Shown here in pieces: positions 3,704 to 61,932 of a stretch of 64,000 nt of DNA. The DNA is taken from contig NC_079489.1 of the NCBI RefSeq assembly GCF_020520425.1, positions 16,578,001 through 16,642,000 on the forward strand, read 5' to 3'. How positions within the stretch are numbered: the first letter of the stretch is position 1; every line of letters begins with the position of its first letter. The notes below the pieces were generated by a model. It had not been told where the DNA came from and searched no databases. It saw nothing but the letters and a program-made list of their open reading frames with translations. The position numbers and the translations under genes are program-made. The DNA comes from Spinacia oleracea (Eukaryota; Streptophyta; Magnoliopsida; Caryophyllales; Amaranthaceae).

Positions 3704-4514
3704 TGTTGGAATTTAAAGATGGAAAAGCGCTCAAAACCTGCCTGCCAGGTTTTGGAAAACCGGCAGGTTTCTCAAAACCTGCCTGCCAGGTTTTCCGAAA
3801 CCGGCAGGTTTCGAGTGTAAGTTGAAAATCGGACTTAAAAGACATTTTTTGAAGTGAACCGAAAACCGGCCGGTTTTGGAAAACCGGCAGGTTTCGAGAT
3901 CGGTTCTTGGTGTTGTCCGTTTTTTATCTTCTCTTGGATTCCTCCTTTATGATAACCTTTTAAGTATTATTTATGGACAATTATCATTCTGATTATGGTG
4001 ATTAAGTTGGTCCATTATTTCTCTTGATTATGGGGGTTATCAACTCTTCATTATCATGGGTTTATGGTTGATTAATATCATTGAATTCCTTTGAAACCTT
4101 TGATTTCTTTGGATTGTTTTGTCTCCTCCACACATCCTATAAGTACTCTTCATTTTCTGAGTTGTTGGTACACACATATATTGATCTCTTCCTCTCCTCC
4201 TCCTTTCCCTTTTGTTTTGGATGGAAGAATTTTGGTTCATGATTAAGTCATGAATATTTGTATCTCTTCAAACCGTTTCCTTCTTATTCTTTTGGGCATA
4301 AGTTTATGTGGCTCCATCTCATCACCCAAAAGTGCCTTTGTGTGTTGAGAGTTGTGTAAACCTTAGGGAACGAATCGGTGGATACAATTGTGCACCCCGG
4401 TTGCACCGAATCTCGTTTTCAAGGCAGTGGTTTGGTTACCACGGCGCAACGATTTCCTAAACTCGTTCTTATTCTTATTCTAGTATTTGCCTTGAAAACC
4501 CAATTATTACAACA
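3704..4514 (+). repeat. 5' LTR
   Basis: This LTR runs TG...CA over 811 bp. A TATA-like CCTATAAGTACTC lies at about 4136, which would put the transcript start near 4165. Upstream of it, in the probable U3, is a cluster of GC-rich inverted repeats, listed separately. Confidence 0.95.
3731..3899 (+). repeat. U3 cluster of AAACCTGCC / GGCAGGTTT inverted repeats
   Basis: The motif AAACCTGCC and its complement GGCAGGTTT alternate several times (3731-3813 and 3860-3899), with CCGGCCGG palindromes between. Each pair can form a short hairpin. The cluster is much richer in GC than the rest of the LTR and lies 250-400 bp upstream of the TATA-like box, the usual place for LTR enhancers. The 3' LTR carries the same block at 8731-8899, with one mismatch at 8785. 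Confidence 0.7.
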
Positions 4515-4529
4515 ATTTGAAAACGAGAT
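4515..4529 (+). other. Putative primer-binding site, unlike any tRNA PBS
   Basis: The sequence after the 5' LTR does not start with TGG, as expected for priming by a tRNA 3' end. Instead TTGAAAACGAGAT (4517-4529) is perfectly complementary over 13 nt to ATCTCGTTTTCAA at 4410-4422 inside the same LTR. This suggests possible self-priming, as known for Tf1-type elements. It is inference only. Confidence 0.4.
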
Positions 4530-7500
4530 ATATTTCAATGGCTAAATACTTCTTATGATTTTTGAGGAAATTTATATTTGTGAGTTTGAGTGAAAGATAA
4601 AGGGAATTTAGAAGGTTTCCAAAGATGTTTTTCATTCACGTTTTTCTGGGAGAAGTCTCAAAGATTGATCCAGATCGAGGGTCATCCGTGGTCCGATTGT
4701 CCCGAAATTTTGACACAATATCCGGGACATCTTAGGCTTGATTTTTAACGGTCGGATTGTCATTGGATGATCGCGATCGTCAGTTACAACTTCAACAACG
4801 AACCTGATTTTTCTGGATACGGAAAGTCAAAAGTAACGTCTTGGAAGAAGATGATTGATGAATGGTGGTCATGATATCGTGATAGAGGATTGATTGAAGA
4901 TTTTGGAATGTCTTACAATACACATACTTGATTTAATATCAAGGGAGGTTCATTCTAAACTACTTCTTTTAATAAGATATTATTCTAACATGTTCATTTC
5001 TAATAGTCATTTCAACAAATTATATTTTGTGAAGATGACAATATTAAAATTGATTTTTATATTGTCAAATGATGTTTGTTGGAATGATTACTAGAAAGTA
5101 GAGTATTTGAATTATTTATGATGTATGAACATGTTATTGCACTCTACAGTTTACTTTGGTTTCATGCATGTTTAATTTCATGAGGAGACCTTAGTTTTAT
5201 TAAAGTTATGTTTTTAGTCTTTTAAAGACTAATGTGAATTATTTGTGCATTGTCATATTTTCCTTGGTAGAGGAATTTTGGGCTTGTGACTTTGTGTACT
5301 TGCTTTACTAAGGGTATTTAGTAAGTAGTTTTATTCTAATAGTGATTAGATTATTAGCCTTGTACGTTGTCATTTCAAGCGCTAACTTGTCATAGTAATA
5401 TTGGTGTATACGTATGATTCCAAGTTCTTGTTATGCCGGTTTTCCAAGTTCTTGTTTATCACCATGAATATTGGGTATGTAACTTCATAATCAATGGTTT
5501 CTTATGCATTGTTGGAAATATGCATATTTAATTCCTTGGAGTTTTTTGTGTACCCATTGGAGCAAGTTATCATAAGCTTGTGATGACCCCCTAGAACATA
5601 AGTGTTTGAGTTTGTGGAAGCAAACTATGTTAACCCTTTTCCTTGGAATATGTTGAGTGAGTTTTTACGTATAATATTTTCCTTGGATGTATACCTGATT
5701 ATTCGAGTCACTACACTTTTGGGAATTTGACCATTAATCTTGTCATGATTGGTATGGTGTTGTTTAATGAATTTTCTATGGTTGAGACTAAATAGCCTTT
5801 TTATTTGTGTTGGTGTTGGAATTTCATTAAAGTTGGCCAAAAGTTTTGAGACTTGAGTTTTAAGGGTTTATTGATCTTAAAATGGTTTTATGGGAATTGT
5901 TGAGTACATAATTTTATTATGGCATTTCTCATAGTTTAACCTTGTTGAGTGATCATTTTATGATCTTAATTTTTGGGCTTATTATTTCCATGTGGGGGTT
6001 GTTTTTGAATGCTCATGTATTTTTGAGAGTTTCTCTTGGGAAACCTTTAGACCCCGGTGTTTTTTGGAAAGTGGTTGTGAGTCCAAATATTCGAGATTCG
6101 AAATTTTTAGGTGTCATGTAAAAGAGACTTTTAAGTCCACTATATGGGAAGTGCCTAATATTTCAATGTTGGACTTGTTTTCTTGGTCCTTGTATTATTT
6201 GAGTGTACTCTTTTTATTATGCATGTAATTCCATGACTTCTTGGGATGTTCATCTTATTGATGAGTTTTGGTATGTATTTTTTTGAGTATTCTCATTTTA
6301 ACGGTAATTCTTCTTTTAGCATGTTTGTGCATGATGCAATTAATTGTTTGGCTATGCATGTTGGGTTTAAAGTGTCTCTTGCTTGATTGTTCTATTTTCT
6401 TCTAATTCTTTTGTTAGTAGTGAACAAGTTGAATTTAGAAGAGACTTGAAGTCAGAGTTTTCAAGGCATGAGAATTGCCCGTTATGCTAAAGGACGTTTT
6501 TATGTATGCCTTGAATTTGTGTTGTGTTTTCAATTCCTATGAGTAAGACCTTAATTCCGTGATTTGTCAATGGAGATTTTTTGTCGTTAACCTTTGAGGG
6601 GAAGCTTTTGGGAGTAAGTTAAGCTTACTTGTGAGTTTCGCAACCTACCTAAGGAATATGAATATCTAGATGTTTTCTTGAAAGGGTTTCATGACTATTC
6701 ACCGGATGGTTATTAGGAGTTTCAAGGCTATACTTGAATTGGGAGAACCTTATCAACGTAAGGGAGTGAGATTTTCTTATTCTTATTATTTTGGGAACAA
6801 GTTTTATATCACTTAGATTTTTGAGCAGTTTAATTTTCATTCCTATATTGCATGCTCTTTTATCATAGGTATGTAAAGTGATTGTTCTAAGTGGTAAAAC
6901 CATGAGTGATGAGTTCCCATACTTGAGGATAAGAATTATGTGTTTATGGAATTCATTATGTGTGTTGGAGTTATCACCATTGTAATGGTACATGTACCTT
7001 ATCGATATCTTGATGCATATTGATTGTGTAGAATTTGAATTCTCATAGTTGTTTAGATTAATAACTTGGGTGGAGAATTTCAATTCTTATTTTTCCAAGG
7101 TGATAATTATGTGTGGTTATTTTACTCGATATGTGGATGATGTGCTCAAGTTATATTTACATCACATGTTGAATATTGAGTTTTAAACCTTCATTGAATT
7201 CTATGTCTTCTCCCTTGAAAGTTGAAAGTGTTATTTAAGTAAATGGTTTTGAGTAATATATGAAAACAAATGTTTGGTTTTCATAGTAAGTCATTTTCTT
7301 AATTTTTGAGAAGATTTGTGGAAATATAAAATCATATCATTTGTGGGTATGTGTGGAATGTAATTTTTAGCTTCAACATTTAAAAGGACCTAAAACATGA
7401 TTTAGGTTGTGGACGCTAGTATATTTTCCGCTATGATAATGATATGTATTGTTGGTATTTTGACATAGCTATTATTTGTGAATTTACTGTGAAATAATTG

Positions 7501-8703
7501 AGTTGTTTTTAATTTCACAAATTTTTAGTGAACGAGGGTTTGCTTCATTTTAAAGGTATCATGGATAAGGTCGAATGGTATTTATTTGCTATGTTTTCAA
7601 AGTATGTCGCTTTGAAGTTTTCGATGCAAATTATAGAAGTTTGATATTGATGAAGTACTTTCACTAAAGTGGCTATGTTGATTTGAGGATCATACTTTAT
7701 GAAGAACTTTTTGTAAAATTGAGTTTTACAAAATTGTCCCATCAAATTTAATTGGTGTTAGTTGAACCAAAAAGCATCTTATAATTTCTTTACCATGTGT
7801 GCTTTTGAGTGAGCATATACCATTTAAATGTCCTTGCTTATGGTTATACTTTCTAACGGAAAATCTTAATGCAAGGTACGCTATGCACTATGGTACGAAG
7901 ATTGAATTGGGACATGTAATGATCCTTGATGGTTGAAATGTCGAGGGGGATAGGCTTCATGCCCATTTGAGTAAAGTAATAAGCATTACTTGCTTATCCC
8001 TATGGCATGTGTTGTAATGCTTGAATGAGGTTGAGTCTTTGAACTCTTAATGGTAGAGTGCTAGTTGAGATGCACTTTAAAGAGAACCACCGCTTGTATG
8101 AGGGTTGAGTTGTATAAACTCTTAATGAATCTAACATATTGAAATGGACGCATTCAACTTGTGGATTCACCAACCAAATTATTTGAGAGGTTGAACATTA
8201 TATTATGTTCTTAATGAATCTATGGTCTTGTGGGGGTTAATATAGCTGCGAGGTAGCTCTTGATGGTTCACTAAAAGTGAACATAATTTAACCCTATTGA
8301 CTAAGTGCTATTTTGAGAAGCACTTGAGGATTCACCTACGTGGTTGTGAAGACTCGCCATCTTCTATGAAACTTGGGCAGTTTCCTAGAGCTTCCATGAG
8401 AACTAAGGTAAACGCATGGCTTAAAACGCGTACACTTTGCGGAGTCCACATAATCTTTGGAGTGAGGTATGTGTTGTGGGGGCGTGACTTAAATCTTAGA
8501 GTTTCAAGGTTAGTCCACTATTTGATCAAGGACTTAAGGGTTTCAAGGTACGTCCACCCTTGGGTTTGTAAGTCATAATTCACTTCACTAAGCATTTGGT
8601 TTCAATTTACTTTATGTAACACCAAGTGTTATGTATTAAGCTCCTCTTATGCCCAATATCTTCCTCTTTCATTTGGTATCTTTTCTCATCTTTAGTGGGG
8701 GAT
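4515..8703 (+). other. Non-coding internal region of the LTR element
   Basis: There are 4189 bp, T-rich on the plus strand, with stops in all frames. Short phrases recur toward the 3' end (for example CTCTTAATGAATCTA and GGATTCACC variants at 8100-8340). A lone YVDDVL-like stretch occurs at about 7128-7145 but has no neighbouring RT motifs. Nothing else is recognisable. Confidence 0.7.
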
Positions 8704-9514
8704 TGTTGGAATTTAAAGATGGAAAAGCGCTCAAAACCTGCCTGCCAGGTTTTGGAAAACCGGCAGGTTTCTCAAAACCTGCCTTCCAGGTTTTCCGAAA
8801 CCGGCAGGTTTCGAGTGTAAGTTGAAAATCGGACTTAAAAGACATTTTTTGAAGTGAACCGAAAACCGGCCGGTTTTGGAAAACCGGCAGGTTTCGAGAT
8901 CGGTTCTTGGTGTTGTCCGTTTTTGATCTTCTCTTGGATTCCTCCTTTATGATAACCTTTTAAGTATTATTTATGGACAATTATCATTCTGATTATGGTG
9001 ATTAAGTTGGTCCATTATTTCTCTTGATTATGGGGGTTATCAACTCTTCATTATCATGGGTTTATGGTTGATTAATATCATTGAATTCCTTTGAAACCTT
9101 TGATTTCTTTGGATTGTTTTGTCTCCTCCACACATCCTATAAGTACTCTTCATTTTCTGAGTTGTTGGTACACACATATATTGATCTCTTCCTCTCCTCC
9201 TCCTTTCCCTTTTGTTTTGGATGGAAGAATTTTGGTTCATGATTAAGTCATGAATATTTGTATCTCTTCAAACCGTTTCCTTCTTATTCTTTTGGGCATA
9301 AGTTTATGTGGCTCCATCTCATCACCCAAAAGTGCCTTTGTGTGTTGAGAGTTGTGTAAACCTTAGGGAACGAATCGGTGGATACAATTGTGCACCCCGG
9401 TTGCACCGAATCTCGTTTTCAAGGCAGTGGTTTGGTTACCACGGCGCAACGATTTCCTAAACTCGTTCTTATTCTTATTCTAGTATTTGCCTTGAAAACC
9501 CAATTATTACAACA
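8704..9514 (+). repeat. 3' LTR
   Basis: This is the second copy of the 811-bp LTR, identical to the first apart from two substitutions. It is preceded by the polypurine tract AGTGGGGGAT (8694-8703) and followed by the TTATA duplication. Confidence 0.95.
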
Positions 9515-10464: not shown

Positions 10465-11241
10465 CTGGATGCCCTTGCGACACAGATTGGAGACAACAGA
10501 ATAAGCAACCTTAGAGAGGCTACCTCTAAACACAACCTGGAAGTCTCCTTAGGAATGCTATTAAGCACCACCGCGACAGTTAAGCTGCTACCGTCTACCA
10601 CTTTCACTTTAAGGTTTGGGTGCCTTTCCAAGTAAATTTCGCCGTTCCTATTTAATTGCTCCCCCTACAAGTATATACATGGAGATCAAAAAACAGATCG
10701 ATGTTCATTAGCTAGGTTGGATCGAGTTATATTGGTAATTAGAGGGGAAAGTAATGACTTAAACAAGACTTGCCTGATTAAAGAGTCCAAGGCTCACTAC
10801 TTTGACTCCTTTATTGTTTGCCTCAAGTATGGCTCCTTCGATCAACTTATTTATAGCTTTTCGTTGCCTTTGCAAATCATACTATCATTTATTAATTTCA
10901 TTTCAGAAAACAAATTAGAAGCCAATCAGGCAATATTTCGAGTCATTCCCTCTTTTTGGAACTTTAATCATCACTTGCTTAAACAAGTATTGGAACAACT
11001 AATTTAAAAAGGAATTAGTGTGGGCTTTCTTCTGTCTCACAGCTAAGGCCTTTTTTTTATAGGCAATGCCTAAAATGTTTAATTTTTTGGTAAAATATAT
11101 CATTTGACATGTTTTAATTGCTCAACAAGTGAAAATATATGTTCAAAGTAATAATAATAATAATAATTATGTTCATTTTAAAACAGCAACTTTTCGGTAG
11201 GATCGCCTAACAGGCGCGTGTAGGAAAGACCGCCTGTAAAA

Positions 11242-11274
11242 CCACGCGCGCGTGGCTTCACGCGCGATATAAAT
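11242..11274 (+). promoter_or_regulatory. Transposase promoter with CpG palindrome and TATA box
   Basis: A 14-bp perfect palindrome CCACGCGCGCGTGG (11242-11255) is followed by TATAAAT (11268-11274) and a CT-rich leader up to the ATG at 11446. The GC-rich block stands out from its AT-rich surroundings and lies in the subterminal region, where MULE transposases normally bind. Confidence 0.5.
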
Positions 11275-11445
11275 CGAAATTTTTTCTCTCTCCTCTCATT
11301 TTCTGCAAACTCGCTTCTTCACCTTCTCTCCTCTCAAAACTCTCTCTGTAACCCTAAACCCTAACTGCAGATCACGAATCTCATCTCCTCCTCCGCCACC
11401 GAATCTGCAGACCCTAACCCTAGTTTTTCTCCTCCGTCGATTTCC

Positions 11446-14400
11446 ATGGAGTCCTCACCGTCGTTTTCGCATGATAACTTTAACAACTCCGCCGCACCGT
11501 CCACCAATTTAGGGAGTTTTTCAACCTTCTACGGCGAAGACAACCTCCATGAATACCATCCTCCTCCAGAATTTCTTCCTCCACCTCGATTTTGTACAGT
11601 TCAACGACTTCGTTCTCCAAGATTTCTTCCTCCACCTCGATTTTCTACAGTTCAAGGATTTCGATCTCAACGATTTCCGCCTCCACCTGCAACGCCTAGA
11701 TTTGCTACTGATAATCGATATTTTCCTCCTCCTACATTTGCTGCTCCTTCTAGATTTGGGGCTCCTTCTAGATTTGCTGCTCCTGATGGATTTAATTCCA
11801 CTGTTAACTTTCAATCACCTGCTCCTCCTAGATTTGAAGCTCCGGAACCAATGAATTTGTTACTTGAATATCAAACAGGAAATACTGCAACAACAGAAAC
11901 AACGTCAGACACAACTTCTGGAAAAACATCAGAAACGATGTCAGACACAACGTCTGGAAGCAACACATCAAGTAATAAACTAAACACAATGGGCAAATAA
12001 ACTAAATACAATGGGCAAATAAACTAAATACTTTCATATATTAACTAATTTTAGTTTTCTTTAACTAATTTTATGAATTTTGTAACTAATTGCTCCTAAA
12101 CTGATTAAACAATTTAAAAAATTTGTAACTAATTTTAATGAAAACTTTAACTAAACATTTGAATTTTGTAACTAATTATGTTTTTCTTTAACTAAATAAC
12201 TGAATTTTTTAACTAGTTAACCGGTTAAAACTAATTGCATTTTTTTGGTAACTAATGTCTTTAATATTTTAACTAATTACATTAACTGTTTAACTTTTTA
12301 AGCAAGTATACCACTTAACTTGGGCAAATTAAAATAATTTTAACTATCTCATTTCAGTTGTTAACTAATTCTAATGAAAACTTTAACTAAACATTTGAAT
12401 TTTGTAACTAATTATGTTTTTTCTTTAACTAAATAAGTGAAATTTTAAACTAGTTAACTGATTAAAAGTTTTTGCGTTATTTTTTTAACTAATTTCTTTA
12501 AGATTTTAACTAATTTCTATTGATTCTTAACTAATTTGTTTTTTATTTTACAGGTTTAAAAACTAAATTTGATAACTTAACAGAGGATGAAATAAGAGGA
12601 TCATTGACTGGATATGAAGCACAAACCCTTGATGAAATATTTTCTCTTTATCAAAGACATTCAGTGTTGATCGGATTTTCAGTGAGGAAAGCTACAACAA
12701 GGAGAGTTCCAAAAACTGGAGAGCTCAAGGAACAATACTTGTGTTGTTCAAAGCAAGGAAAAAGAAGAGAAGAAAAATCAAAGAACAACGAGGAATTACC
12801 TTTACCATGTGAAAGCAAACCAAAAAAAGAGTCAAAACAAACAAGAAAACAAGATATTACTAGAACGGGATGCAATGCGCAGATAAGAGTGAAGTTGAAC
12901 TGTAGTGGAATGTTTGAAATTAAGCATCATGTTATTGAACACAATCATGATTTAGCAAGATTGTCACTGCAACACTTTCATAGGTACAAATAATTAAACC
13001 AAACACTTTCACTAATTCGTTTAATTTCCTAACTAATCTGTTTAAAACGTGAACTATTTATATATTTTCATTAACTATTTTCTCTACAGGTCAGAAAGAA
13101 AAATTGATGAAGATAAGGCACAAGTAATTGAAGGGCTTGCTTTATCAGGAATACAACCAGCAGATTCATACAGATATATGTGTAATGAATCCGGTGACCC
13201 GGAAGTGCTTGGCCACACATTAATTGACCACATGAATTTTTCAAGTAGATTGAAGATGAAAACAATAGAAGGAAAAGATTCACAAGCAGTGGTGAATATG
13301 TTAATTCGCAGAGGAGAAGAAGAACCGGATTTTTTTTATCGTGTTAAGTTGAATGAGAAAAATCAAGTTATAGGCATATATTGGAGAGATGGAATGATGA
13401 AAGAAGATTATGATATATATGGAGACGTGTGTGTGTTTGACACGACCTTCAGAACAAACAAATACAACTTAGTTTGTGCACCGTTTGTAGGCGTCAACAA
13501 CCACTGGAGTAATGTGATGTTTGGATGTGCCTTTATTGCTGATGAAAAAACAGACACTTTTGTGTGGCTATTGGAAGTATTTCTAGAGTCTATGGGAGAA
13601 AAAGCACCAGTAACTATCTTCACTGATCAAGATCAGACAATGGCAAATGCTATTGAACAAGTAAGAATACCTTAACTAATTTGTTAATATTGTTAACTAA
13701 TTGCTTCTTTTTGTTCACTAATCACTTACAAATCTTCACTAATTAATAGACACTCTTCTCTGATGTCTTCAGTAGTTTACTAAAAAGTTAAAATCATTAA
13801 CTAATTCATATTAATACTTAACTAATACTATTCTGTGAATATAATAGGTATTTCCTCATACTAGACATAGATTATGCTTATGGCACCTACAAAAAAATGC
13901 TGTGTCAAGGTTTGGAGATTTAAAGGCTGACACGACATTCAAGGACACTTTTAAAAAGTGTTTATATGGCTGCTTCAATGAAGAACAATTTGAAACAACA
14001 TGGTTTGAAATGATTCAAACGTATGGGCTTCAAAATCATGAATGGTTTACAAATTTGTACACCATAAAGGAAAAGTGGTGTACAGCTTTAAACAAAGATT
14101 TTTTTTCAGCTGGTATTTTGTCTTCACAAAGGTTAGTTACCAACTGAAATAATTGATATAAATATTTAACTAATTGGTATAAATATTTAACTAAGTATTT
14201 CGATTTTTTAACTAATGTCTTGCAATGCTTAACTAATTGGTGGAGTTGTTTATCTAATTGTGTTTTGTTTAACTATTTGATTGGTTTATTTAACTATTTG
14301 GTTTTAAAATGTAACTATTTCAGCATATTTATTAACTAATTGAATATTTTTCTTTTAAAAAGGAGTGAGAGCACAAACAATGCCATTGGATTTAAAGGGA

Positions 14401-15629
14401 ACAAATCAACTACCCTAACAGAATTCTTCCATATATTTGGGGCAACAGTAGATCGGTGGAGGTATCAAGAAGATCAGAATGAGTTTAATTGCGGAAATTC
14501 AATGCCTAAATCAGATTTTCCAATGGTTGGAATGATTAAACACGCGGCAAGTGTTTATACGCTCACCTTGTTTCGAGATTTTAAAAAAGAATTCAAGTAT
14601 GCAATGGGTTGCATATCAACTATTCATCACATGGAGGACAATTTCATTGGTTATAAAGTACAACACGAATCATGGCCAGACCACACTGCAAAACATGTAG
14701 CATTTGATCCATCAACCAATTCAATTGCTTGCAATTGTAGAAATTTTGAAGAATCAGGTTAGCTAATTCTGTTGACTAAATCTTTTAAAAAGTTAACTAA
14801 TCGTATTCAATTCTTAACTAATTGATTCATGTACTTAACTAAATAGTGTCAGTTTTTAACTAATTGATTTCAGTTCTTAACTAATTGTTTGAAAAACTTA
14901 ACTAATTGTATTCATTTTTTAACTAATTCATTTCAGAAAGTTCTTAGATTTCAGTTTAATTTTCTTGCATTATGATCAAATATTGCTCCTATTACAACAT
15001 GCAGGATGGCTATGTTTTCATGCAATTCGAGTTCTACATGTACATTCTATAATCAATATCCCAGATAAATATATTTGCAAAAGATGGACAAAGTTTGCAA
15101 AAAGTGAAGTATGGAAGAGAGTGGAACAAAGAGAAGATAATGGTATTGAAAAAAGAAAAATCACTCCATGGCGTTACGAGATGGCAAGAAATTTTTACAA
15201 TTTGGTTCTTAAATGTCAGGACAGTGACGAGGCAAAAAAGGTTTTTAACTAAATGAAGGTTAACTATTACATACAAATTTAATACTAATTTCTATTAGAG
15301 TTTAACTATTTTTTTTAATTTTTTACTATTAGGTTCTGAGAGCTGCTTATGCAAGTGCTAGTGACAACATAAATAAAGTGCTAGAAGCAGAAAAGGCAGC
15401 ACAAAAAGAGGCAGCTCAAAAAGAAGCAGAGGATGTGGCACCTACTTCATCATCATCAAATGCACTTCTAGAATATCCTGGTCAATTTCCACAAATAACA
15501 GTTCAGAATCCACCACAAATAAAGACAAAAGGAAGAAGTAAAAGAAAAAAGGGACACTTTGAGGTCAGAGAATCATCAACAACAGCTAAAGAATTCGGAA
15601 CATTTCCAACAAAACCACAACTATTTTAA
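11446..15629 (+). CDS. MULE transposase, FAR1-type, seven exons, 912 aa
   Basis: The protein cuts and moves Mutator-like DNA. Proposed exons are 11446-11971, 12554-12983, 13090-13660, 13848-14131, 14363-14757, 15005-15240 and 15333-15629. They total 2739 nt, an exact 913 codons, and every border is GT-AG. Exon 1 encodes a Pro/Phe-rich tail with PPPRF-type repeats. Exon 2 holds a FAR1 WRKY-GCM1-like zinc domain (CC...TGCNAQIRV...IEHNHDL). The DDE core reads VFDTTFRTNKYN (first D), IFTDQDQTMANAI (second D) and SSQRSESTNNAI (catalytic E), with the conserved CLWHLQKNA between the last two. A SWIM zinc finger spans the exon 5/6 junction (CNC...FEESGWLCFHAIRVL). The C-terminus is charged and basic. 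No stop or frameshift was seen. Host-domesticated FAR1/FHY3 relatives are an alternative, but the TSD and termini make this a transposon gene. Confidence 0.9.
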
Positions 15630-16303
15630 AGATTTGTGTAATTAATTGAATATGAACAGGAATTAGTCAAAGAAAGTGATTGTGTAGTGAAACTATCAGA
15701 CAAAATATTCAAAGAGAAAACACAAATATTTATATTTGATTTTTAATACTACTTCAATTTTTACTTCACATTATTTATTTATCTTGCAATTGTTTAACTA
15801 ATTGCTTTGATTATTTAACTAAGCAGCTCAATTTATGAACTAAAGGCTTCCATTTCTTAACTAATTGGATTGCAATACTTGATTTAACCAAGTGTTCCAT
15901 TTTTTTAACTAATGTCTTGCATTGTTTAACTAATTGGTTGAGTTGTTTGACTAATTGGTTCATTAGTGTAACTAAGTGGTTGGTTTTCTTAACTATTTTG
16001 TTCTAATGAACTGCACTAACTGGTTGGATTACTTAACTATTTGTATCAGAGACTTTACTAACTAGTTGGATTACTTAACTAATTGGATTACATTGTTTAA
16101 CTAGATTACATTGATTAACTAATTGTTTCAATGACATCACGAACTAGTTGGATTACTTAACTAATTGTTTCAGAGATTTAACTAAATGTGCAACTAACAG
16201 TACCACATGTTAATTTGTTAGAAAAAAGAACCACTATCAACTAAAACCACTATCACCTAAAATGTTTGGCAAATTTCACAACTAGACCAACTCCTAAGTT
16301 GAT
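15630..16303. other. Spacer between the two convergent MULE genes
   Basis: This region should hold both 3'UTRs. It is dominated by TTAACTAATT-type motifs with no open frame of note. Confidence 0.6.
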
Positions 16304-16531
16304 TCACTCGTCAACTTTATGTCTTTTCATGCTCGGTTCTTCAGTTCCTGATGTGGGGGCTGTTGTTGCAGTCTTGGCTCCACGCCTTGTCATGGCATAT
16401 GTTTTAAGTGGTTCAGAAACATCTTCTTTGGCATTCTCTGCTGCTGCTGCCTTCTGTGCCTTCTTCAAAGCAATAGTTTGTAGTCTCTTCTGCACAGCAG
16501 CAGCCTTCTTCTGTTTCAGTTGTTCTTGCAA

Positions 16532-19500
16532 CTAGGCAGTAGCCTCTTCTTCTTGTTTACGCCTCTTTTCGTCTTCTTCTTTCTTCTTCTTCTGTTCTTC
16601 AATCTTCTTCAGTTGACGATCATGGATAGCGGGGGCAATACCAGCTTTCACGGAGTTGAATCCTTCAATTTCCTTGAGCACATCTTGTTGAATTTGGTTC
16701 AAATCAGACAGAACTAAGGCACTACAAACCTTAGCTCTGCACTGAATTCTGGTTGAACGCTGAAAAAAAAAGAAAAACAGACTAATTAGTAATTGAGTTT
16801 CACAGTTAACTAATTTCTATAATATTTAACTAATTGTATTTCACAGTTAACTAATTGCCATATATACTTAACTAATTGTATTTCACAGTTAACTAATTGT
16901 CATGTGTACTTAACTAACTAACCAGTCTAACTAATTGCTTAACTAATTGCTTAACACAGTTAACTAATTGGTATAAATATTTAACTAATTGTATTTCACA
17001 GTTAACTAATTTCCATATCTACTTAACTAATTGGATTTCACAGTTAACTTATTGCCATGTATACTTAACTAATTGCCATTTATACTTAACTAATTTCCAT
17101 ATGTACTTAACTAATTCCCATATGTACTTAACTAATTGATTTCAGTTCTTAACTAATTGGTTGAATACTAAAATAAAATAAAATAATGTTTAACCAATAA
17201 ATCTAAACAATTAACTAATTCTTTTAAAAACACTTAAAAATATTGAAAACACTTAACTAAAAGAGAATTACCTTGGAGAGATCACAAGTCATCTCCTCTC
17301 CGTCAAAAAAGTGCATTGCCATCAACAGAAAAACCCCACAATCTACATGATTAGGGGTTTTTGATCTTCCAGGGAAATCAAGATATGTCATTTCGAAATC
17401 TAAAAGCTCGGAAGCTGATGGATGATCAATTTCCATCAAGTAATTGTAGAACGCTTCAATCATAAAGGACATTATTGTCTTGTATATAGACAACACCTTC
17501 TTCGTAGAAATGACGTTGTCAACATATACAAGAGTTTTACTGTTGAAGTTGACAATTAGAAGAGAAAAGTGCTCCCCATAATGAATAGGCAAGTAAAACT
17601 GCAAAAAAATGAAGAAAAACAGAATCAGAAAAATCATAACTAAAAGACATAAAATTTTAACTAATTAATACAATGTCTTAACTATAACCTATAAATTCAT
17701 AACTATTAAGAATACAAACTTACCATGGAAACAGTTTTAAGATCCCATCGGTGGTCATTGATGTCTTCCACCCAATGTTTCCAACTACTTAAAAGCTCTT
17801 CAGAAATTTGTTGTTCAGAGTCCATTGACTTCTCATTCGAAACAAGATCTTTTAGCTTGATCTAAAAAATAATAAAATAAATTTAAATAGAGAAAAAACA
17901 TAGTAACAAATTTTGGTGTAATGAATAATAACAAAGAAATAATCGTACCGTATACTCAATTCCGAAATAGAAGTTACACCCTTGATAATTCAGCTCAAAT
18001 TGCTTTCTATTTAATAGAATGGCCCAAGACTCGACAATATTGGATAAGATTTTCCTATCAGGGAGCAAACTTTGCATCTCTTCTCTTGTTATCTTATGAA
18101 CCAAACCATAAACAAAAAGTTCAGCCCTGTTACACAATCATTAATTTATGTTAGTGTTTAAATAATTGATGTAATTTTTAACTAATAGGTTCTTGTGCTT
18201 CACAATTTAGTTAAGTTGCATATTTTTTAAGGCTTAACTAAATGACATGATTAGTTAACTAATACATGATATTCTCTAACTAATTGTTAAAAATTCTAAA
18301 CTAATGACTATAAAATCCTAATTGATAACTAAAAATTCATAACTAATTTATGTTAACTATTTACTAAAAACTCATTACTAATTGATACACATTCTTAGAT
18401 AAAACTATAAAATGAATAACTAATTCAGAAACACAACTTACTTTTGATCAATAAAATCATCTTCATGAAAACAGAAGTCCATTTTTAAGGCTTAACTAAA
18501 TGATATGATTTGTTAACTAGTATATGATATTGTCTAACTATTTTGTGAAAATTCTAAACTAATGACTATAAAATCCTAATTAATTACTAAAAAATTCATA
18601 ACTAATTTATTTTAACTATTTACTAAAAACTAATTACTAATTGATACAAATTCTTAACTAAAACTATGAAATGAATAAGTAAATACAGAAACACAACTTA
18701 CTTTGGATCAACACACTCATCTTCAAGAAAACAGAAGTCCAGAACCTCTTTTTCAAGCTTTGCCTCTTGGGAGAGAGTCTTAGGGTACCTAAGCATGAAT
18801 GCAGATACAAAGAAAACTTCTTCATCAGGTGAACCAAGTGCTATGCTGCAACAAAGATTATCATTTTCTGGTTGACGACCACCAGATGTATCACTCGTTG
18901 AAGGAACAGAACCAGAAGCAGCATCATTCTTTTTATCTGCACCGCTACCATCACCAACAGAACCAAAAGCAGGAGCGTTCTTTTCACCTGCACCACTACC
19001 AACACCGGCAGCACCAGAAGCAGCACCATTCTTTTCAGCCTCATCATTACCAGCACCGACAGAACCAGAAGCAACACCAACACCATTCTTTTCACCTGCA
19101 TCATTACCAGCACCGGCAAGTCCAGAAGCAACACCATTCTTTTCAGATGCATCATTACCAGCACCGGCAGCACAACTGTTATTTTTCTTCAGATCTTCAG
19201 CATATGCAACAATGGAGTCTATAATCTCCAAAAATACTGGATCTCCATAACCAGGACTATCTGACAATTGTTGTCTTCCCTTCTTTAACGTACTGATATG
19301 CTGCTGATGAAAATTGGAAACAATGTATAAATCCCGGCAATACTTTTTCAATGCTACTTCCAACTCCTTCACAAAAAATGAAAAAAATTAGCTAAAACTA
19401 ATAATAGTATCAAACAATGTATAACTATTTAATTTAATAACTTAACTAATACAAGACACCATGTAACTAATTTCTTGAATTACTTAACTAATATGTGTGA

Positions 19501-21457
19501 CTGAAAAATAATAAAATTGTTAACTAATTGCCTTAGTAGATTAACTAATTGGTATCAGTTCATCACTAATAAGTAGGATTCCTTAACTAAACCAAATAAA
19601 AATAAAATTGAAAAAAATAAACTGACTTACATCATCGCAGCTCTTTTCAATATCATCATTTGTCTGAAAACCTTCAGGAATAGCAAACTCAATCATCTTA
19701 CTTCCCGATGCAGAATGAGGTATCCCCGACAAATCACCAAGAGACTTTGCCAAAGGATAGCTCGTTAAATCAACAGCAGCTAGCCCAAAACCCATTTTCA
19801 CCTCAGCAGCTACACGTTCAGATACTTCATCAGGAGACCAATGTTGCACAAGCGGAATCTCCTTGGGCGGACTTACACCACGGAATAAAGCTCTTTGAAG
19901 ATATATAATCTCCAAAAATTGTAAACAACCGCCAACTCTAGTATTAGTAATTTTTTCGTTCCACCTACATACAGCCAACCCCAAATGGTCAAGCACGTAC
20001 TTGCACCAATTTTGTTTCGCAATTTTTGAAACATCCTCTACTGCCTTAAGAAGCTTAATGTCTACCAAACGGTTAGACGTGGGAGCCAAGAAAACACCTG
20101 TCAAACCAATCAGTTCATCACAAAAACAAATCAGTGAAGCAATTGAATAAATTAGTTAAGCATGCAGTTCAATTAGTCACACTGAGACAGTAAGTAGTTG
20201 AACAATCAGTTCACTTAGTTAAAAACAAGAATTAGTGAAGCATTTCAAGCATTTAGTTAAAAAAATCAAATAATTAGTTAAATTTTCATTACAATTAGTT
20301 AAGATGTGAAATAAAAATACTGAAAATTTTTCGAAACAATAAATCACTGAGAATATAAGTAGTTAAGTATTAAAAGAAACTAGTTAAAGAATAGAAGGAA
20401 TTAGTGAAGCATTTTAACCAATTAGTTAAGGTAGAATAAATAATTAATTACAAAAATGGATTACCTAAAGCGTAAATCACAAACGCACGCTTGAATTCAT
20501 CTCCGTACTCGTTAGTATTTGCAAGATAAATCTCCACCTCAGACAAAGCAGCAGATTGCACATTGTCTTTTTTGTTATATTTTCTAAACCACCTCTGGAT
20601 CATTTCAAACGTTCCATCTCCCTCAACCCTCTTCCTAGGTGTTTCTTCAACATCAACACCTTTCACCAAGGGCAGCCTAAACACGTCATACACATCATAA
20701 TCATATAGCTGCACACCATATTTCCGGCCTTCCCCAAACTGCAGCATATGACCAACACTGTTAAATTTCTCAAGAATCCAGCAACTAAGCTTCTTGTTAA
20801 TATCAGGAAGACGAATAGACAGCAGGCCACCAAATCCAATTTCAGTTATGGCCTTGACTTGTTTGTCTTTCTCCTTGATGATAGATAGCATATTAATGAG
20901 AGCTTCTGGTCTACAGATGGGTGTAAAATCCCTAGAAAAGAACAAAAGAACTTAAAACAAAGAACCAATAATGTAATAATTGGAACATAAGTGATATGAC
21001 TAAATTAATAGGAAAACTACACTATTAGTTTCAGTCCATAACTAAATACATTGGATGTTTAACTAATTACTTGTACAATGACACTAATTGATGTCAAATC
21101 TTAACTAATTGGTTTCACAACTTAAAAAATTCAAATGAAAGTTTAGCTAGTTGAATTTACTGTTGAACTAATAGGTTTCAATCAATGACTAATTAAACTA
21201 AATGTATAACTAATAGGTCTCAGTCAATGAATAAAAAGAGGATAAAATTTATACCTATCCAACTCAATTGTTTTACCATCAGGCTCTACATACTCCAACT
21301 TCACTTTTTGTGTTTTCTTTGTCCCTTTTCTGGACGGAACAGCCTCATACCCTACATCAGCAGCAACTTCTTGTGTCTGTTTCACTAAATCAGGATCTGC
21401 ATTCTTAATATGAGGATCATCCTCAGATGTCTTCGCTGCATTTTTTGTTCTAGCCAT
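16532..21457 (-). CDS. Ulp1-like C48 cysteine protease protein carried by the MULE, eight exons, 890 aa
   Basis: Proposed minus-strand exons are 21457-21255, 20931-20465, 20097-19631, 19366-18702, 18126-17949, 17861-17724, 17598-17272 and 16759-16532. They sum to 2673 nt, 891 codons with stop, all with GT-AG borders. The N-terminus is Lys-rich (MARTKNAAKTSEDD). Exons 2-3 resemble the plant domain found upstream of Ulp1 in such transposon proteins (ALG|VFLAPTSNRLVD). Exon 4 encodes a low-complexity GAGND.EKNG.ASG repeat. Exon 7 carries the protease core: His in PIHYGEHFSLL, Asp in LVYVDNV and Cys in HVDCGVFLLMAM. The usual oxyanion-hole Gln before the Cys is not evident. Cellular family members cleave SUMO; here the role in transposition is unknown. 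An in-frame TAG at 16534-16532 ends the protein inside a Lys/Glu coiled-coil-like tail; the frame continues to 16304 with a Lys/Ala-rich 75-residue extension, so the stop may be a recent mutation. Confidence 0.85.
18226..18740. repeat. Tandem duplication of about 258 bp at the exon 4/intron 4 border of the Ulp1-like gene
   Basis: The block starting TTAAGGCTTAACTAAATGA at about 18226 is repeated from about 18486. It includes the splice-donor end of exon 4 (ACAACTTACTTTGGATCA at 18693 versus ACAACTTACTTTTGATCA at 18433). The distal copy therefore holds a pseudo-exon end with its own possible donor, inside the intron. Confidence 0.75.
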
Positions 21458-21465
21458 TTTGATAC

Positions 21466-22355
21466 CTGAAAAAAAATACACAACGTAAGTCAACAAATCA
21501 AAATTCAAAAAACAAATCACTGAAAAACTAGAAAGTTTGTAACTATTTAGTGTGTATAGATAACTAATGTATGTAAATGTGTAACTAATATGGTAAAATA
21601 TGAAACTAATTCGTCTGTATAGATAACTAATTGGTTATAACTAATTTATGAAAACACATAACTATTTGAGTTGAATAGTTAACTAATAGGTTAAAATATG
21701 TAACTAACATGTTAAAATACATAACTGAAACATACATGTTGTTAAGATATTCTTAATTGTGATTATTAATAAAAAAAAACTAAAACTACTGATATCTTAA
21801 CTAAACAACCTAAATTCTAAACTAAAACAACAAAAATTCAAAAGCATAGCAAAAAATAAATGGGAAAAAGCATTTTCAAGCAGTTCCAAAAGAAAAACAC
21901 ATAAAAATAATGAATCTGACAACCTGAAATTCAAATAAAAAGTACGAAAAATGAAGTTCTAACAATAATAGCACAAAAAAGAGAACAATCGCGCAGTTGT
22001 AGAAGAAGAATCGCAAAACGTAAGCACAAATCTCAGAAAATCACAACAAATACATGAAAATCTTAAAAAATCGACGAAAACCCTAACATAAACGGAAAAT
22101 CAAGAAGAATCATATAATCGATGAAAATAGAAAAAATGAAGAACAAAAAATGCACAAAAACGCAACGACATTAAAGTAAAACCTAAAAATCACAGTAAAA
22201 CCCTAAAATGAACACAAACCCTAACAATATACATGCATACCAAAATGTAGATTAAAAGCAAAATAAAACGAGTATACAGACTAAATTAAACTAGAAAAAG
22301 AGAAGAAAATCCAAAAACAACAAAAATTGAAAGTTAAATTGAAGGAAACACTTAC
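21466..22355 (-). other. 5'UTR intron of the Ulp1-like gene
   Basis: TTTT|GTAAGTGTTTCC (donor at 22355) and TTTTTTCAG|GTATC (acceptor ending 21466) bracket an 890-bp intron ending 8 bases before the ATG at 21457. The first exon would begin downstream of a TATA-like CCTATAAAAAC (about 22585-22575), roughly 110 bp inside the right end of the element. Confidence 0.6.
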
Positions 22356-22646
22356 AAAATCGAAGAGACAAAGAACAATAACGGAGCTTGAGCCAATTTC
22401 GGAAGAATAAATAGCAGAATTGAACCAAAAACGACCAGAAGTGAAGCGTGATTTGGAAGAAAAACGATCGGCGCGAAAAGATGAAGAAAACCGTCACTTT
22501 CTCTCTCTTAAATGAGAACAGTGTGATTTGAAAATGAAACGAAAATGAAAATGAGGAAATAGATCAGGAAACCAATGTTTTTATAGGATCCGAATATTTT
22601 CGACCCGCGAGAATTTGGGCTGTATTTGACCCGCGAACAGAACCCA

Positions 22647-22682
22647 GTATAAGGTGGTCTCACAGGAAAGACCGCCTTATAC
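22647..22682. repeat. Terminal hairpin at the right end of the MULE
   Basis: GTATAAGGTGGTCT (22647-22660) is inverted as AGACCGCCTTATAC (22669-22682) with one mismatch, leaving an 8-nt loop. The left end has CGCCTAACAGGCG, and the small relative at 54061-61803 ends in TATAAGGTCGCCTTATA. Fold-back ends look like a family trait. Confidence 0.75.
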
Positions 22683-22702
22683 AAAAGTTTGTAATTTTAA
22701 AA

Positions 22703-22975
22703 TTAGTAAATACTTGTTTCACAATCAGTAGATAAATGTTCATTTCTAAATTGGTTGAATAAATGAGAATTACCAAATAATTAGATAAACGTTCATATTC
22801 GAATGAGTAGATAAATGTTTATTTTCAAATAAATAAATAAATGTTCATTTCCAAAATAGTAAATGTTCATTTCCAAAATAATAAATGTTCATTTCCAAAT
22901 AAATAAATAAATGTCCATTTCCGAAAAAGTAAATGTTCATTTCCATATGAGTATATTAATGTTCATCTTAAACAA
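22703..22975. repeat. Degenerate minisatellite AATAAATGTTCATTTCC
   Basis: Units of about 20-35 bp built on AAATGTTCATTTCCAAA are repeated roughly eight times immediately outside the right end of the MULE. Confidence 0.75.
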
Positions 22976-54874: not shown

Positions 54875-57800
54875 TCAGTTGTTGGTAATCTCCCCATCCT
54901 CTACTTCAACAATTTCAATTGCTGTATCCATTGTTGAACCACCAACAACAAAAGGTGTGAAAGATATCCCTTTACCCTTATCCTGTTTCCCTTTGTCAAT
55001 GTTTTTCAAATTATCCACGGCTCCCTTGATGTCTGTAACAATTGGACCAAAAACCAGTTGAGCAGATGTTCCTGAAGTTGCCACCCGATTCAAAGTATCT
55101 GCATTATCATATGAACGTTTGGCCCCTACAATTGAATTGGCCTCATCTCTCGCATTTCTTCTTATCGTATCAACATAGGCCGGATTTGCATTCTCAAAGT
55201 CAGCCTCATAATCACTCTTGGCACATGAAGGAATAATATAGTGTAATTTGCTTCCAACGGCCATGATAAGAGAATGAGCAGCAAGGGAATGAGCCACTTT
55301 GTTACAAAATTTTGGAATGTGAGTCAGATCCCCCACCCAGTTCTGAGTGAGAAGATGTGCAACTTCCCTCAAGACAGGGCCCAGTTCATGATGATCTTGC
55401 TCTTTAATCTTTTCTAGAAGCACTTTGAGATTTAAAGCATCTGTTTCTATCTCCAACTTCTCAAACTTGAAGTCTCTTGCAATTATGAGTCCCTCTCTTA
55501 ATGCATAAAGTTCTGCAACAAGAGGAGAACATACAGTGAATTTACTGGAGAAACCCACAAACCACGAGCCAGTTGACCTTCTGAACACTCCTCCACCTCC
55601 TGCTACTACATCTGACTTCCAGGCTCCATCTACATTTAACTTCATGACTCCTTCTTTTGGAGGAAACCAGGTCTTTTTACTCATTCCTGGAACTTGATTG
55701 TCACCTATTTCCTTTCCCTGTGAGCAATTGTTAGCAAAAGTCCAATCTACATAAAAGGCATTGTAAAGAGAAAAGGCAGATTTCATTTTGATATCAAAAA
55801 CTACTCTATTCCTGGATAACCAAATCTGCCATATAGCAGTTATGAACAAACTTTTCCATTTCATTGAATTGTTTAGGTTAAAATTGATCCATGTAGTCTA
55901 ATATGAATTGTAAAAAGTATTAAAATCAAATTTAGATTTAGACCAAATGCGTTGGAAAATATAAGTCCATAAAATACTAGATTGAGGACAATCTCTAAAC
56001 AGGTGCATATGATTTTCAATATGTAAGTGGCATCAAGAACAAGTTGGAGAAATTTGAGGAATAAACTGATTTAAATTCCCTGCCACAGGTAGAATCTGGT
56101 GAGCACAGTTCCAAAGCAGCATTTTATATTTATAAGGTCCTATGATCTTCCGAACTTTGTGCCAAATAATGTTATTTAAAGCAGGACAATGATTGCTATT
56201 TAATTGGGAATAATAAGCTGATTTAATATTAAAGCAACCATTCTTAGAATAAATCCATCTTATAAAATCTGTCTCCTTGCAGTTATTAGAGAGAGGATAG
56301 GAAAGGATTAAGGATTTAATATGAGAGGGAAGGAGATGATCAATATCATCAAGATACCAAGTTCCATAACCGAATAATATGACTAACAAACCAATGAGCT
56401 TTGGAATCAGGGATTGTAATTCCTTCAGTTTTATACAATGGTTGATTACCAATCCAATGATGATACCATAAAGAGGTACTCTCACCATTCCCAATACCAA
56501 TAATAATTCCACGTTCAAGGATAGGACGACCTTTAAGAATGTCCCTCCATAAAGGAGATTGATTGTTATTTGGAACGCAGTTGAAAAGGTTTGAATGTTT
56601 GAGATATTTTTCCTTTAAAATTTTCACCCACAATTTGTCTGGGTTAGTTAAAACAGTCCAACCCAATTTGGCCATAAAAGCTAGGTTCCATTCTTTTAAT
56701 TTCCTAATTCCTAAACCACCTTCATTAATTGGTCTAGTAATCTTATCCCAAGAAAGTCTAGACATATACCTACTCCTTTCAACCTTATTCCATAAAAATT
56801 TCCTACAATATTTTTCCAAGGCATAAGTAATGGAAGTAGGAAGAATATTGGTCTGCATAGCATAGAGAGGATAAGAATTTAACACAGATTTAATTAGGGT
56901 GCACCTCCCTGCCATATTAAGAAGCTTAGCTTGCCAACCCCTCACCCTATCCATAGATTTATCTAAAAGACCTAGGTAATTAGAAATCTTTAACTTATTT
57001 GGTCTAATATCCACTCCTAGGTATTTTCCAAAAGAAGAAGAAATTTTAAAACCAAATCCTCCAGCAATATCTTCTCTGATGGAATGATGAAGATTGGAAG
57101 GGAAAATAAGAGTTGACTTATTCATGCTAATTTTTAACCCAGACTTATCTCCAAAATTTTTTAAAGTTTCCATAATATTAATCAGAGAATCCTTGTTTGC
57201 TATACTGAACAGGAAAACATCATCCGCGTAAAAAACATGAGATATTCTAATATTTCTAGTGATAGCAATAGGCTTCCAATTATGAGAATTCACCTCATGC
57301 TCAATAAGAGTAGATAATCTATCAAGGCATAAAACAAAAATGTAAGAGGAAAGGGGGTCACCCTGACGAATTCCCCTCGAAGGTTTGAAAGCATTACAGA
57401 TTTCTCCATTCCAAAGAATGGAAATGGAAGGAGTTGAAATGCAAGACATTATAAGATCGATCATTTTAGAAGGAAAATTAAAATAGAGGAGGGTTTCTCT
57501 AACAAAATCCCACTCTATACTATCGTAAGCCTTGGTGATTTCTAACTTTAAAGCCATGATCTTATTTCTTTTTTTAACTTTATGAAAGTGATGAGCCATT
57601 TCTTTAACAAGGATAACATTATCCTCTATACCCCGACCATGAATGAAACTAGATTGGAACGGACTTATAATTCGTCCTAAAATATTTTTTAATCTTGAAG
57701 AAATAATTTTAGTAATAAGCTTATAAATAGTATTACATAATCCTATCGGTCTAAATTCCGCAATAGTGTCGGGGCACGAACTTTTAGGAATAAGGGTAAT

Positions 57801-59318
57801 ATAAGAATGATTTATATCTTCCGGAGTAGTACCATTAAGAAAACAATCATTGCAAAAGTCAAAAATAATATTTCCTAGTTGTGACCAATGCTTTTGAAAA
57901 AAAATTGGTTGGATCCCATCTGGGCCTGGTGCCTTGATAGGATCCATAGCAAAAAGATTGTTACGAACTTCTTCCATAGAAATAGGGGAATTCAACATGT
58001 TAAATTCGTCATGATTAATGGCCAAACTACTATGCATGTCACAATTTAAATTGCCATACAAACGAGTAGTGGTAAAAAGATTTTGAAAACAAGTCGTAGC
58101 CATACTTTTCAATTGATTTTGATCCGTAATCCACTCATCATTACTGTTTTTTAAAGCTTGGATTCTGCCTCTTGATTTCTTAATGTTAGCTATCATATGG
58201 AAATACTTGGTATTAAAATCCCCATATTTTCTCCAATTCATGCCTGATTTTTGGGCCCAAATCAAACGCTCCTTATTTAAAATATCATTTAGGTGTTGTA
58301 TCAGGATTTTTTCTAAATTCACTAAATACCCTGAGTAATTCTTACTTAAAGCAATCTGTATTCCATCAATTCTTGCTAAAAGATTCTTCTTTTGTTTTTT
58401 TAAATTACCGAAGATGTTATGATTCCACGTAGGGATAGAATTAAGAAATTCATCTCTTCCCTGCAGAAAAGAATTATTTGGAAAATTCCAATTACTAATA
58501 AAGTAATTAGTAAAATCAGGATGTGTTAACCACACTTCTTTGCATCTAAAAGGAAACGGCCCTGTAGCAGTAATATTTGACAGAGTAATTAAAAGAGGTG
58601 AATGGTCAGAATGAGTACGAGGTAAGTGATGAACCTTAGTATGAGGATAAGCTTCCATCCATGGTGAGTTTGCTAAAGCGCGATCAAGCCTTTCCTGAAT
58701 GAGGTTATGCCCATCCCTAGCATTAGTCCAAGTAAAAGGACAACCACTAAACCCCAAATCCACTAGCCCAGCATCATCCATGAAGTTGACCGTATATTTT
58801 CCTTGATTGACACGAAAGGGCCTTCCTCCCTTTTTCTCAGATTGGCTGGTAATTTCGTTCATATCCCCCACCACTAGCCAAGGAGTACTTTTAGGAGGTA
58901 AGTTTGATTGGAGAGAATTCCAGTGGTTAAACTTTTCACCAGACGAACTTGGTGCATGCATGGCAGTTACAATACCCACTTTCCCCAGATTTTTAAAATG
59001 AAAAAGAGAGTGAAAATAGGTATTTTCAGCATAAAAAAGAACCATATCCACCATTTTTTTCCAAAACACCCAAATTCCCCCTCTTGTCCCTACAGGTCTA
59101 ACTACCCTGAAGTCTGAAAATTTTAAGGTTATCATCGTCTCCCTAGCCCTTGAACCATCAGCCTTGGTTTCCAAAAAAATGAAAATGTCTGGGTTTTGAT
59201 TAAAAACAACTTCTTTTGCATGAGCTAAAAACAAGTTTCTATTCGCCCCCCTCACATTCCACATGCAAATTTTCATTTGTAAATCAGGTTTAGTTAAAGC
59301 TAAGTTAATTTTTACCAA
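54875..59318 (-). pseudogene. LINE ORF2: endonuclease, reverse transcriptase, zinc finger, RNase H
   Basis: The frame from 59318 begins with an AP-like endonuclease (CMWNVRGANRN, FLETKAD, VVGDMNEI, THSDHSPLL). The RT follows (NKEx region, LEITKAYDSIEW, GIRQGDPLSSYIF, FYADDVFLF with the catalytic YADD). The first frame stops at 56349; a frameshift near 56360-56390 moves coding to a frame ending at a TGA at 56035-56033, just where the zinc-binding domain (SPTCS, then CHLHIENHMHLFRDC) begins. A second stop, TAG, stands at 55900-55898. After it 55864-54875 encodes RNase H (LNVDGAWKSD, AELYALREGL, IETDALNL, KVAHSLA). One frameshift and two stops therefore inactivate an otherwise complete ORF2. Confidence 0.92.
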
Positions 59319-59383
59319 ACCTTGAGAATCAGATGGCTAGCGGATTAAGTAGCTCTCCCAATCCTTCCAGAATTATGGAGCTC

Positions 59384-61618: not shown

Positions 61619-61932
61619 TCCAACTAGGGTTGAAGATACTCAAAGTGGACTTTGCTACTTTTCTCTCAAGACCTTTCTCTCACTAAAAAGTGCTACTTTT
61701 AGAATTGGGATCCACTGAAGCTAAAAAGTTTAAATAAAAAGGAATCATGGGTGACATTAAAGGTGATCTTTTTTATAAGGTCGCCTTATATAAAAGTTTG
61801 TAAATAAATTTGTACACCTTTAGTATACCAGACCTTTTGAAATTATTGTGAAACACGGAGTATTCGGTGTAAGGTTAATTTGGAAGAGATTTTACTACCG
61901 AGTAACAATTTCATTTTCAGAATTTTTATTTA

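Follow-up and report, generated by a model that had tools for sequence, protein, structure and literature searches.

Phased decamer arrays in the noncoding DNA of a spinach Mutator-like element and their possible role as binding sites for an element-encoded protein

The stretch of DNA analysed here (hereafter, the window) comprises 64,000 nucleotides of contig NC_079489.1 of spinach, Spinacia oleracea, and corresponds to C3:16578001-16642000 of the 894,210,420-bp assembly of 242 contigs in which genome-wide counts were made. The window contains a complete Mutator-like element (MULE) spanning positions 11184-22693 (11,510 bp) and holding two convergent genes, one encoding a transposase and the other a protein with an Ulp1 domain. 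The noncoding DNA of this element carries dense arrays of the decamer TTAACTAATT, the core of a unit repeated at a pitch of 21 bp (Table 1). The transposase matched the FAR1 (PF03101, E 3.3e-17) and MULE (PF10551, E 5.8e-28) domains above the cut-off, with the SWIM domain just under it. In its first exon, 51-bp tandem repeats were located at 11564-11688, their unit length being equal to that of the repeats in the second gene. The protein encoded by the second gene consists of a region resembling the Plant Mobile Domain (PMD), a series of 17-aa repeats, and a Peptidase_C48 (Ulp1) domain. The PMD matches were under the cut-off (E 7.4e-6 to 2.4e-5), the Ulp1 domain (PF02902) was found with E 3e-11, and a PDB sequence search of the proteins returned yeast Ulp1 (1euv, E 0.0005) as the sole match. 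In its final exon, the frame of the second gene reaches an in-frame TAG (16532-16534) once 890 aa have been encoded, and 75 more open codons follow. At 18127-18720, an intron of this gene appeared, by eye, to contain a tandem duplication in which the 3' end of the neighbouring exon is copied as well, with the duplicated exon-end copies near 18440-18490 and 18690-18750.

The left end of the element was placed at 11184 because similarity to copy A2 (C2:59431000..), which is 99.25% identical across 11184-17432 and unlike the window element past 17432, begins exactly there. Both ends are flanked by a target-site duplication, and the transposase domain together with this 9-bp duplication assigns the element to the MULEs. 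The inverted similarity of the two ends reached a local score of 51, compared with a null maximum of 50 in 200 shuffles, so that the terminal inverted repeats are degenerate at best; because of this degeneracy, an ungapped scan for terminal inverted repeats with a 9-bp duplication missed the true ends. The heptamer CACGCGC, given as the FHY3/FAR1 site in the available text of two publications (PMC6000157, PMC8599713), has only four copies in the whole window, all of them clustered beside the left end (shuffles: mean 0.38, maximum 2). Copy A2 (n = 4) and a non-coding element described below (L030/L031; n = 2) also carry it at their left ends, and it was absent from the two right ends examined, those of the window element and of L030/L031.

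For counting the decamer, we defined a noncoding set of 15 segments (4,754 bp, between 11972 and 21840) and a set of 15 exons (5,641 bp), the latter including two bases past the stop of the plus-strand gene and the open stretch after the TAG of the minus-strand gene. Exact copies in the noncoding segments numbered 45 in forward and 4 in reverse orientation (93 and 18 when up to one mismatch was allowed), while the exons had neither an exact nor a one-mismatch copy on either strand; an earlier note on this sequence had proposed such a confinement to introns and spacers, and the ratio of 49 exact copies to none bears it out. In the other 53,605 bp of the window, no exact copy was detected, and 13 + 10 matches had up to one mismatch. 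The composition-matched shuffle that the note had asked for (300 shuffles of the noncoding segments with dinucleotide counts preserved) yielded means of 0.23 forward (maximum 3) and 0.09 reverse copies (maximum 2), far below the 45 + 4 observed. When up to two mismatches were allowed, 156 units lay in the main orientations of their segments and 43 on the opposite strands. Between 3 and 26 main-orientation units were found in 13 of the 15 segments, whereas the short introns 17599-17723 and 17862-17948 had one each, and the element ends (11184-11445 and 21841-22693) had none even with one mismatch; the statement that every intron and spacer is saturated therefore stands for the 13 segments and fails for the two short introns and the ends. 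Outside one intron, the strong sites of the window share one DNA orientation, although the 43 opposite-strand sites and the mixed copies of a related subfamily, described below, depart from it. The inverted stretch already recognised in the note was recovered as the intron 20098-20464, which holds all 4 exact reversed copies of the window and 15 reversed versus 3 forward units.

The spacing was much stricter than the 15-40 bp initially described. Out of 141 within-segment gaps, 93 were exactly 21 bp, 4 were 20 bp, and 6 were 22 bp, and 101 were exact multiples of 21, compared with 6.7 expected if the gaps were uniform modulo 21. The tandem-repeat listing contained many arrays with periods of 21, 42, or 63 bp, and the autocorrelation of the noncoding DNA at lag 21 was 0.494 versus a mean of 0.332 (sd 0.037, lags 5-69); lag 21 was not among the top eight autocorrelation lags of the exons. 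The linkers between cores were close to random. The second column past the core was composed of A24 C23 G22 T24 (n = 93), and linker identity was 0.34 between segments and 0.40 between neighbours, with 0.30 expected from composition; the core identity of 0.82 between segments is inflated, since the units were picked by their core. The window arrays are thus tandemly periodic, a point on which the earlier description as something other than a tandem satellite fell short, but their units are not alike over the whole length, so they do not form a plain satellite either. The arrays of two non-coding elements (L030/L031 and L025) were nearer to a homogeneous satellite.

Across the genome, core-N11-core pairs numbered 7,255 + 6,728 = 13,983 (control pattern, 0), and the eight shorter spacings N3-N10 pooled gave 364 + 330 = 694 pairs (control, 2). 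The motif is therefore abundant genome-wide, which the note had regarded as an argument against it, yet it is abundant in the form of arrays, and the arrays inspected closely belong either to MULE copies or to shorter elements whose ends are similar. A core-N11-core scan of viral contigs gave 13 stretches with one match each, which were taken as chance occurrences in AT-rich DNA. Relatives of transposase exon 3 were collected by scoring 150 of 1,245 candidates and inspecting the best 30, the window among them. In this comparison with other family copies, which the note had suggested, all 30 loci lacked the exact motif in exon 3 and had 16-33 exact copies in 3.6 kb. The number and orientation of units in the same intron varied among subfamilies (9 loci; strand counts for all 30), and such differences in array size and orientation between copies agree with the description of the arrays as a spacer-specific expansion. 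One copy of subfamily C (C1:67495000-67508500) also has the second gene in convergent orientation, with 40-61% identity in the aligned blocks. Arrays were present in elements without matching genes as well. The L030/L031 element on C1, 5,723 bp long, has similar ends, a 9-bp duplication (AAATTGAAA), and 107 exact motifs, and tblastn found no match in it to either protein; a 439-bp element in L023 has a 9-bp duplication (TAAGAATAA) and 6 exact motifs.

Two more distant families, each represented by one copy, carry arrays of other words. Family D (L067) repeats AGTAACTATA, and its transposase is 50% and 38% identical to that of the window in two aligned blocks; family E (L068) repeats TTAACTTTAA at 21 bp, and its transposase is 38-60% identical by block. 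The N-terminal regions of their second genes are each 32% identical to that of the window. Exact copies of the three words (A/D/E) were never mixed, the counts being 49/0/0 for the window element, 130/0/0 for the copy of subfamily C, 0/43/0 for L067, and 0/0/41 for L068. Inside coding-aligned DNA, matches to the family word with up to one mismatch amounted to 1/275 in the C copy, 0/138 in D, and 1/143 in E. The pentamer TAACT, AGTTA on the other strand, is common to all three words.

According to the earlier note, no such design had been described, but a closely similar one is known from Arabidopsis. The available text of Hosaka et al. (2017; PMC5735166) reports that VANC21 binds a 9-base motif, YAGTATTAY, in one orientation in the noncoding DNA of VANDAL21, as determined by chromatin immunoprecipitation sequencing and gel shift. 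The dense motif arrays occupy introns as well as intergenic and terminal noncoding regions, they expand via tandem repeats that differ among copies, the targets of VANC6 bear other motifs (AGTTGTCC/AGTTGTAC), and binding is accompanied by a loss of DNA methylation. Tandem peptide motifs are described in variable regions of the VANC proteins (PMC5735166). In the portion available of Sasaki et al. (2023; PMC10398659), VANC anti-silencing is described in contest with RNA-directed DNA methylation, and VANDAL terminal repeats as degenerate. A 2026 review (PMC13317346), again as far as its text was available, states that some VANC genes of VANDALs carry an Ulp1 domain, that this is conserved in eudicot elements, and that recognition of family motifs within noncoding DNA is a property of KIU elements too. 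Like VANDAL21 and VANDAL6, the element studied here is a MULE with a dense short motif in introns and intergenic noncoding DNA and no copies in exons, with growth by tandem repeats, sister families that have different motifs, and terminal inverted repeats that are weak at best; as in the VANCs, the variable region of the candidate second protein contains tandem peptide repeats (17 aa). The VANDAL motifs contain AGTA or AGTT, and the three words reported here read AGTTA on the complementary strand, a likeness to the VANC6 and VANC21 motifs that may be taken as a hint. On the other hand, the words of the window element differ from those of VANDAL21/6, its second protein has an Ulp1 domain and no detected DUF1985, it shows two genes rather than VANA, VANB, and VANC, and its outermost ends are without the array. 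A further difference is the strict pitch of 20/21 bp across linkers that are close to random; in the literature consulted we met no mention of a constant two-turn spacing, and we do not claim it as unpublished. Binding and demethylation have been shown in VANDALs and are proposed here. A second gene with Ulp1 is likewise found in the Ulp1-carrying MULEs (Kaonashi/KI-MULE and KIU; Arabidopsis, melon, grapevine, and rice; PMC13317346, in the text available). With the FAR1/FHY3 (FRS) family, the transposase shares its FAR1, MULE, and SWIM architecture, and the element the CACGCGC cluster by its left end; it differs in that the window protein is an element transposase whose use of CACGCGC is putative and in that the right end has no site. 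In our analysis, a mode of action like that of a VANC-target system is the best reading of the element.

We propose, with a probability of about 0.6, that the arrays act in cis as binding sites of an element-encoded protein, most likely the product of the second gene, that counters silencing. According to this proposal, the second protein, with its PMD-like region, repeats, and Ulp1 domain, would read the decamer around TAACT. Because sites at a 20/21-bp pitch, equivalent to two helical turns, all face the same side of the double helix, cooperative loading of the protein over kilobases is the natural guess. The bound protein may remove or block host silencing (DNA methylation) on the element, as VANCs do on VANDALs, and its protection would extend to non-autonomous relatives that keep the array. 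The lack of sites in exons would be due to coding constraint, the arrays would grow and shrink through tandem duplication, and each family would have drifted to its own word, so that each protein would act on its own family.

A neutral origin would explain part of the same evidence, since a functionless 21-bp unit could grow by slippage wherever coding constraint allows. The clear tandem periods, the variable copy number and orientation, and the near-homogeneous arrays of the non-coding elements are in line with such growth. We simulated a perfect 21-bp array derived from one ancestral unit, without turnover and with an assumed indel ratio of 0.05, decaying to a linker identity of 0.40. After this decay, about 79 of 220 units and about 4 exact cores were left, and 19% of the gaps still measured 21; the values observed in about 226 unit lengths were 156 units, 49 exact cores, and 66%. 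The persistence of core and pitch beside near-randomised linkers is not reproduced by this no-turnover model, and it is consistent with the earlier description of the motif as a binding array. Four elements also hold arrays of three words in the same layout, which speaks against neutral growth. For recent constraint, 22 of the 23 loci L040-L062 of subfamily C (81-84%) were aligned, with L060 omitted and L037-L039 in neither this alignment nor that of subfamily A. Variable columns amounted to 70/518 in the core and 137/579 in the linkers (p = 2e-5), and in the four copies of subfamily A, the core (17/394) was less variable than the remaining columns (223/2,079), that is, all others outside exon 3, which combine noncoding DNA with the other exons. 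There is good support for core and pitch having been maintained over the long term, and we consider purely neutral growth unlikely.

Several results nevertheless weigh against the proposed binding array for the second protein. Restricted to A/T columns, the difference in subfamily C shrank to 52/451 in the core versus 66/394 in the linker (p = 0.036), and in C/G columns it was 18/67 versus 71/185 (p = 0.10); in subfamily A, it was 17/394 versus 28/412 (p = 0.17; A/T only, p = 0.43). The subfamily C core was also no less variable than the remaining columns (176/1,507), as neutral growth would have it. This base-composition control and the comparison with other columns took weight from the idea that the core is under strong selection in the short term, and short-term constraint is only moderately supported. 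One or two two-mismatch matches occurred in exon 3 at 10 of the 30 loci (one strand scanned). Introns of subfamily C have reversed arrays where the window has forward ones, and a conserved orientation, considered at one point, was dropped because the copies of this subfamily are mixed. The pitch of family D is 20 and not 21 bp. The words cross when one mismatch is allowed, with 17 matches to the E word in the C copy and 5 in the window element. As for the domain typical of VANCs, DUF1985 was looked for and was not listed for the window protein at a maximum E of 10, under filters that drop most matches above E of about 0.1, for which reason the protein was not filed as a VANC; it appeared below threshold only in the family D relative (E 0.0099), in a region that also weakly matches PMD, and was not present in the family E piece. 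Finally, the words track the divergence of the transposase too, which leaves the transposase as a possible reader.

This last point is the basis of another reading, in which the array is bound by the FAR1-type transposase itself and might serve, for example, for titration of transposase, for pairing of the ends, or as a mark of copies. The transposase has a FAR1 DNA-binding domain, and the words differ where the transposases differ (38-60% identity by aligned block). However, the array is missing from both ends and sits in internal introns and spacers, whereas the CACGCGC copies of the window are all at the left end and recur at the left ends of two other elements. It is more likely, judging from these positions, that the transposase uses the CACGCGC cluster and the second protein reads the array, and we regard the transposase as an improbable reader. 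The earlier note had suggested either the transposase or a host factor; the former is thus less likely than the second protein, and the latter poorly explains the three words. We take TAACT to resemble MYB sites. A host-factor or DNA-structure array, consisting of MYB-type sites or of nucleosome-excluding phased AT DNA, would fit the presence of TAACT in all three words, the AT-richness, and the pitch near two helical turns, but the flanks of TAACT are family-specific, which a single factor or shape would not demand. With three words whose exact copies remain unmixed in four elements of one genome, a single host factor was rejected, and we give this group of explanations a very low probability. 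The suggestion that the arrays serve as a reservoir of CTAAT branch-point-like sequences for splicing is compatible with the sense orientation of CTAAT within the transposase introns. It is contradicted by location and strand, given that the intergenic spacer is filled (17 units), well-filled introns of the minus-strand gene other than 20098-20464 carry the array in antisense orientation, and arrays persist in an element without matching genes; we rejected it as hardly credible.

Several features were observed in the neighbourhood of the element. Just beyond its right end, 22723-22966 contains short tandem repeats with AATGTTCATTT, and a similar stretch was found at L028 9061-9329. To the left, 3704-9514 is bounded by two 811-bp direct repeats, 99.75% identical and with starts 5,000 bp apart, and looks like a young long terminal repeat (LTR) retrotransposon. 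A minus-strand frame at 819-1619 has an F-box domain, and long minus-strand frames at 54878-61639, with DUF4283, endonuclease, reverse transcriptase, and RVT_3 domains, look like a LINE-type (long interspersed nuclear element) element.

Table 1. Features of the MULE in the window. Units in arrays are counted with up to two mismatches.
Feature	Position	Strand	Details
Left target-site duplication ATTTTAAAA	11175..11183		Perfect 9-bp direct repeat
Cluster of four CACGCGC	11214..11265		Candidate transposase sites; published FHY3/FAR1-binding site
Transposase gene	11446..15629	+	7 exons, GT..AG introns, unbroken 912-aa frame
Transposase exons	11446-11971, 12554-12983, 13090-13660, 13848-14131, 14363-14757, 15005-15240, 15333-15629	+	TAA stop 15627-15629
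Array, transposase intron 1	11972..12553	+	26 units
Array, transposase intron 2	12984..13089	+	4 units
Array, transposase intron 3	13661..13847	+	6 units
Array, transposase intron 4	14132..14362	+	10 units
Array, transposase intron 5	14758..15004	+	9 units
Array, transposase intron 6	15241..15332	+	3 units
Array, spacer between convergent genes	15632..16304	+	17 units forward, 10 weak reversed
Second gene	16305..21457	-	8 exons, GT..AG introns
Second-gene exons	21255-21457, 20465-20931, 19631-20097, 18702-19366, 17949-18126, 17724-17861, 17272-17598, 16305-16759	-	
Array, minus-gene intron	16760..17271	+	21 units; richest in exact copies (16)
Array, minus-gene intron	18127..18701	+	19 units
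51-bp (17-aa) tandem repeats	18907..19170	-	5.1 copies; within variable region of second gene
Array, minus-gene intron	19367..19630	+	7 units
Inverted array, minus-gene intron	20098..20464	-	15 units reversed, 3 forward
Array, minus-gene intron	20932..21254	+	8 units
Array, 5' leader region of minus gene	21458..21840	+	9 units
Right target-site duplication ATTTTAAAA	22694..22702		Perfect 9-bp direct repeat

In a further-reaching form of the proposal that the second protein binds the arrays, several MULE families would each possess their own decamer "address code", with an invariant TAACT, a two-turn pitch, and an extent of kilobases of noncoding DNA, and a cognate PMD/DUF1985-like protein fused to Ulp1 would read it. 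Three or more codes would coexist, non-autonomous elements would borrow one, and pitch and core would be selected. We put this wider idea forward tentatively and at slightly less than even odds. If it is true, the pitch and core would be under selection, and a helically phased protein filament would be the active anti-silencing structure. Another plant genome would then make large-scale use of VANDAL-type anti-silencing (13,983 pairs in 894 Mb), and three candidate protein-word pairs would be available within one genome. Two questions would become testable, namely how the specificity of such a protein changes and whether it is the phasing that lets a short site protect kilobases of DNA. Such orthogonal natural protein-word pairs could also become sequence-specific epigenome tools.

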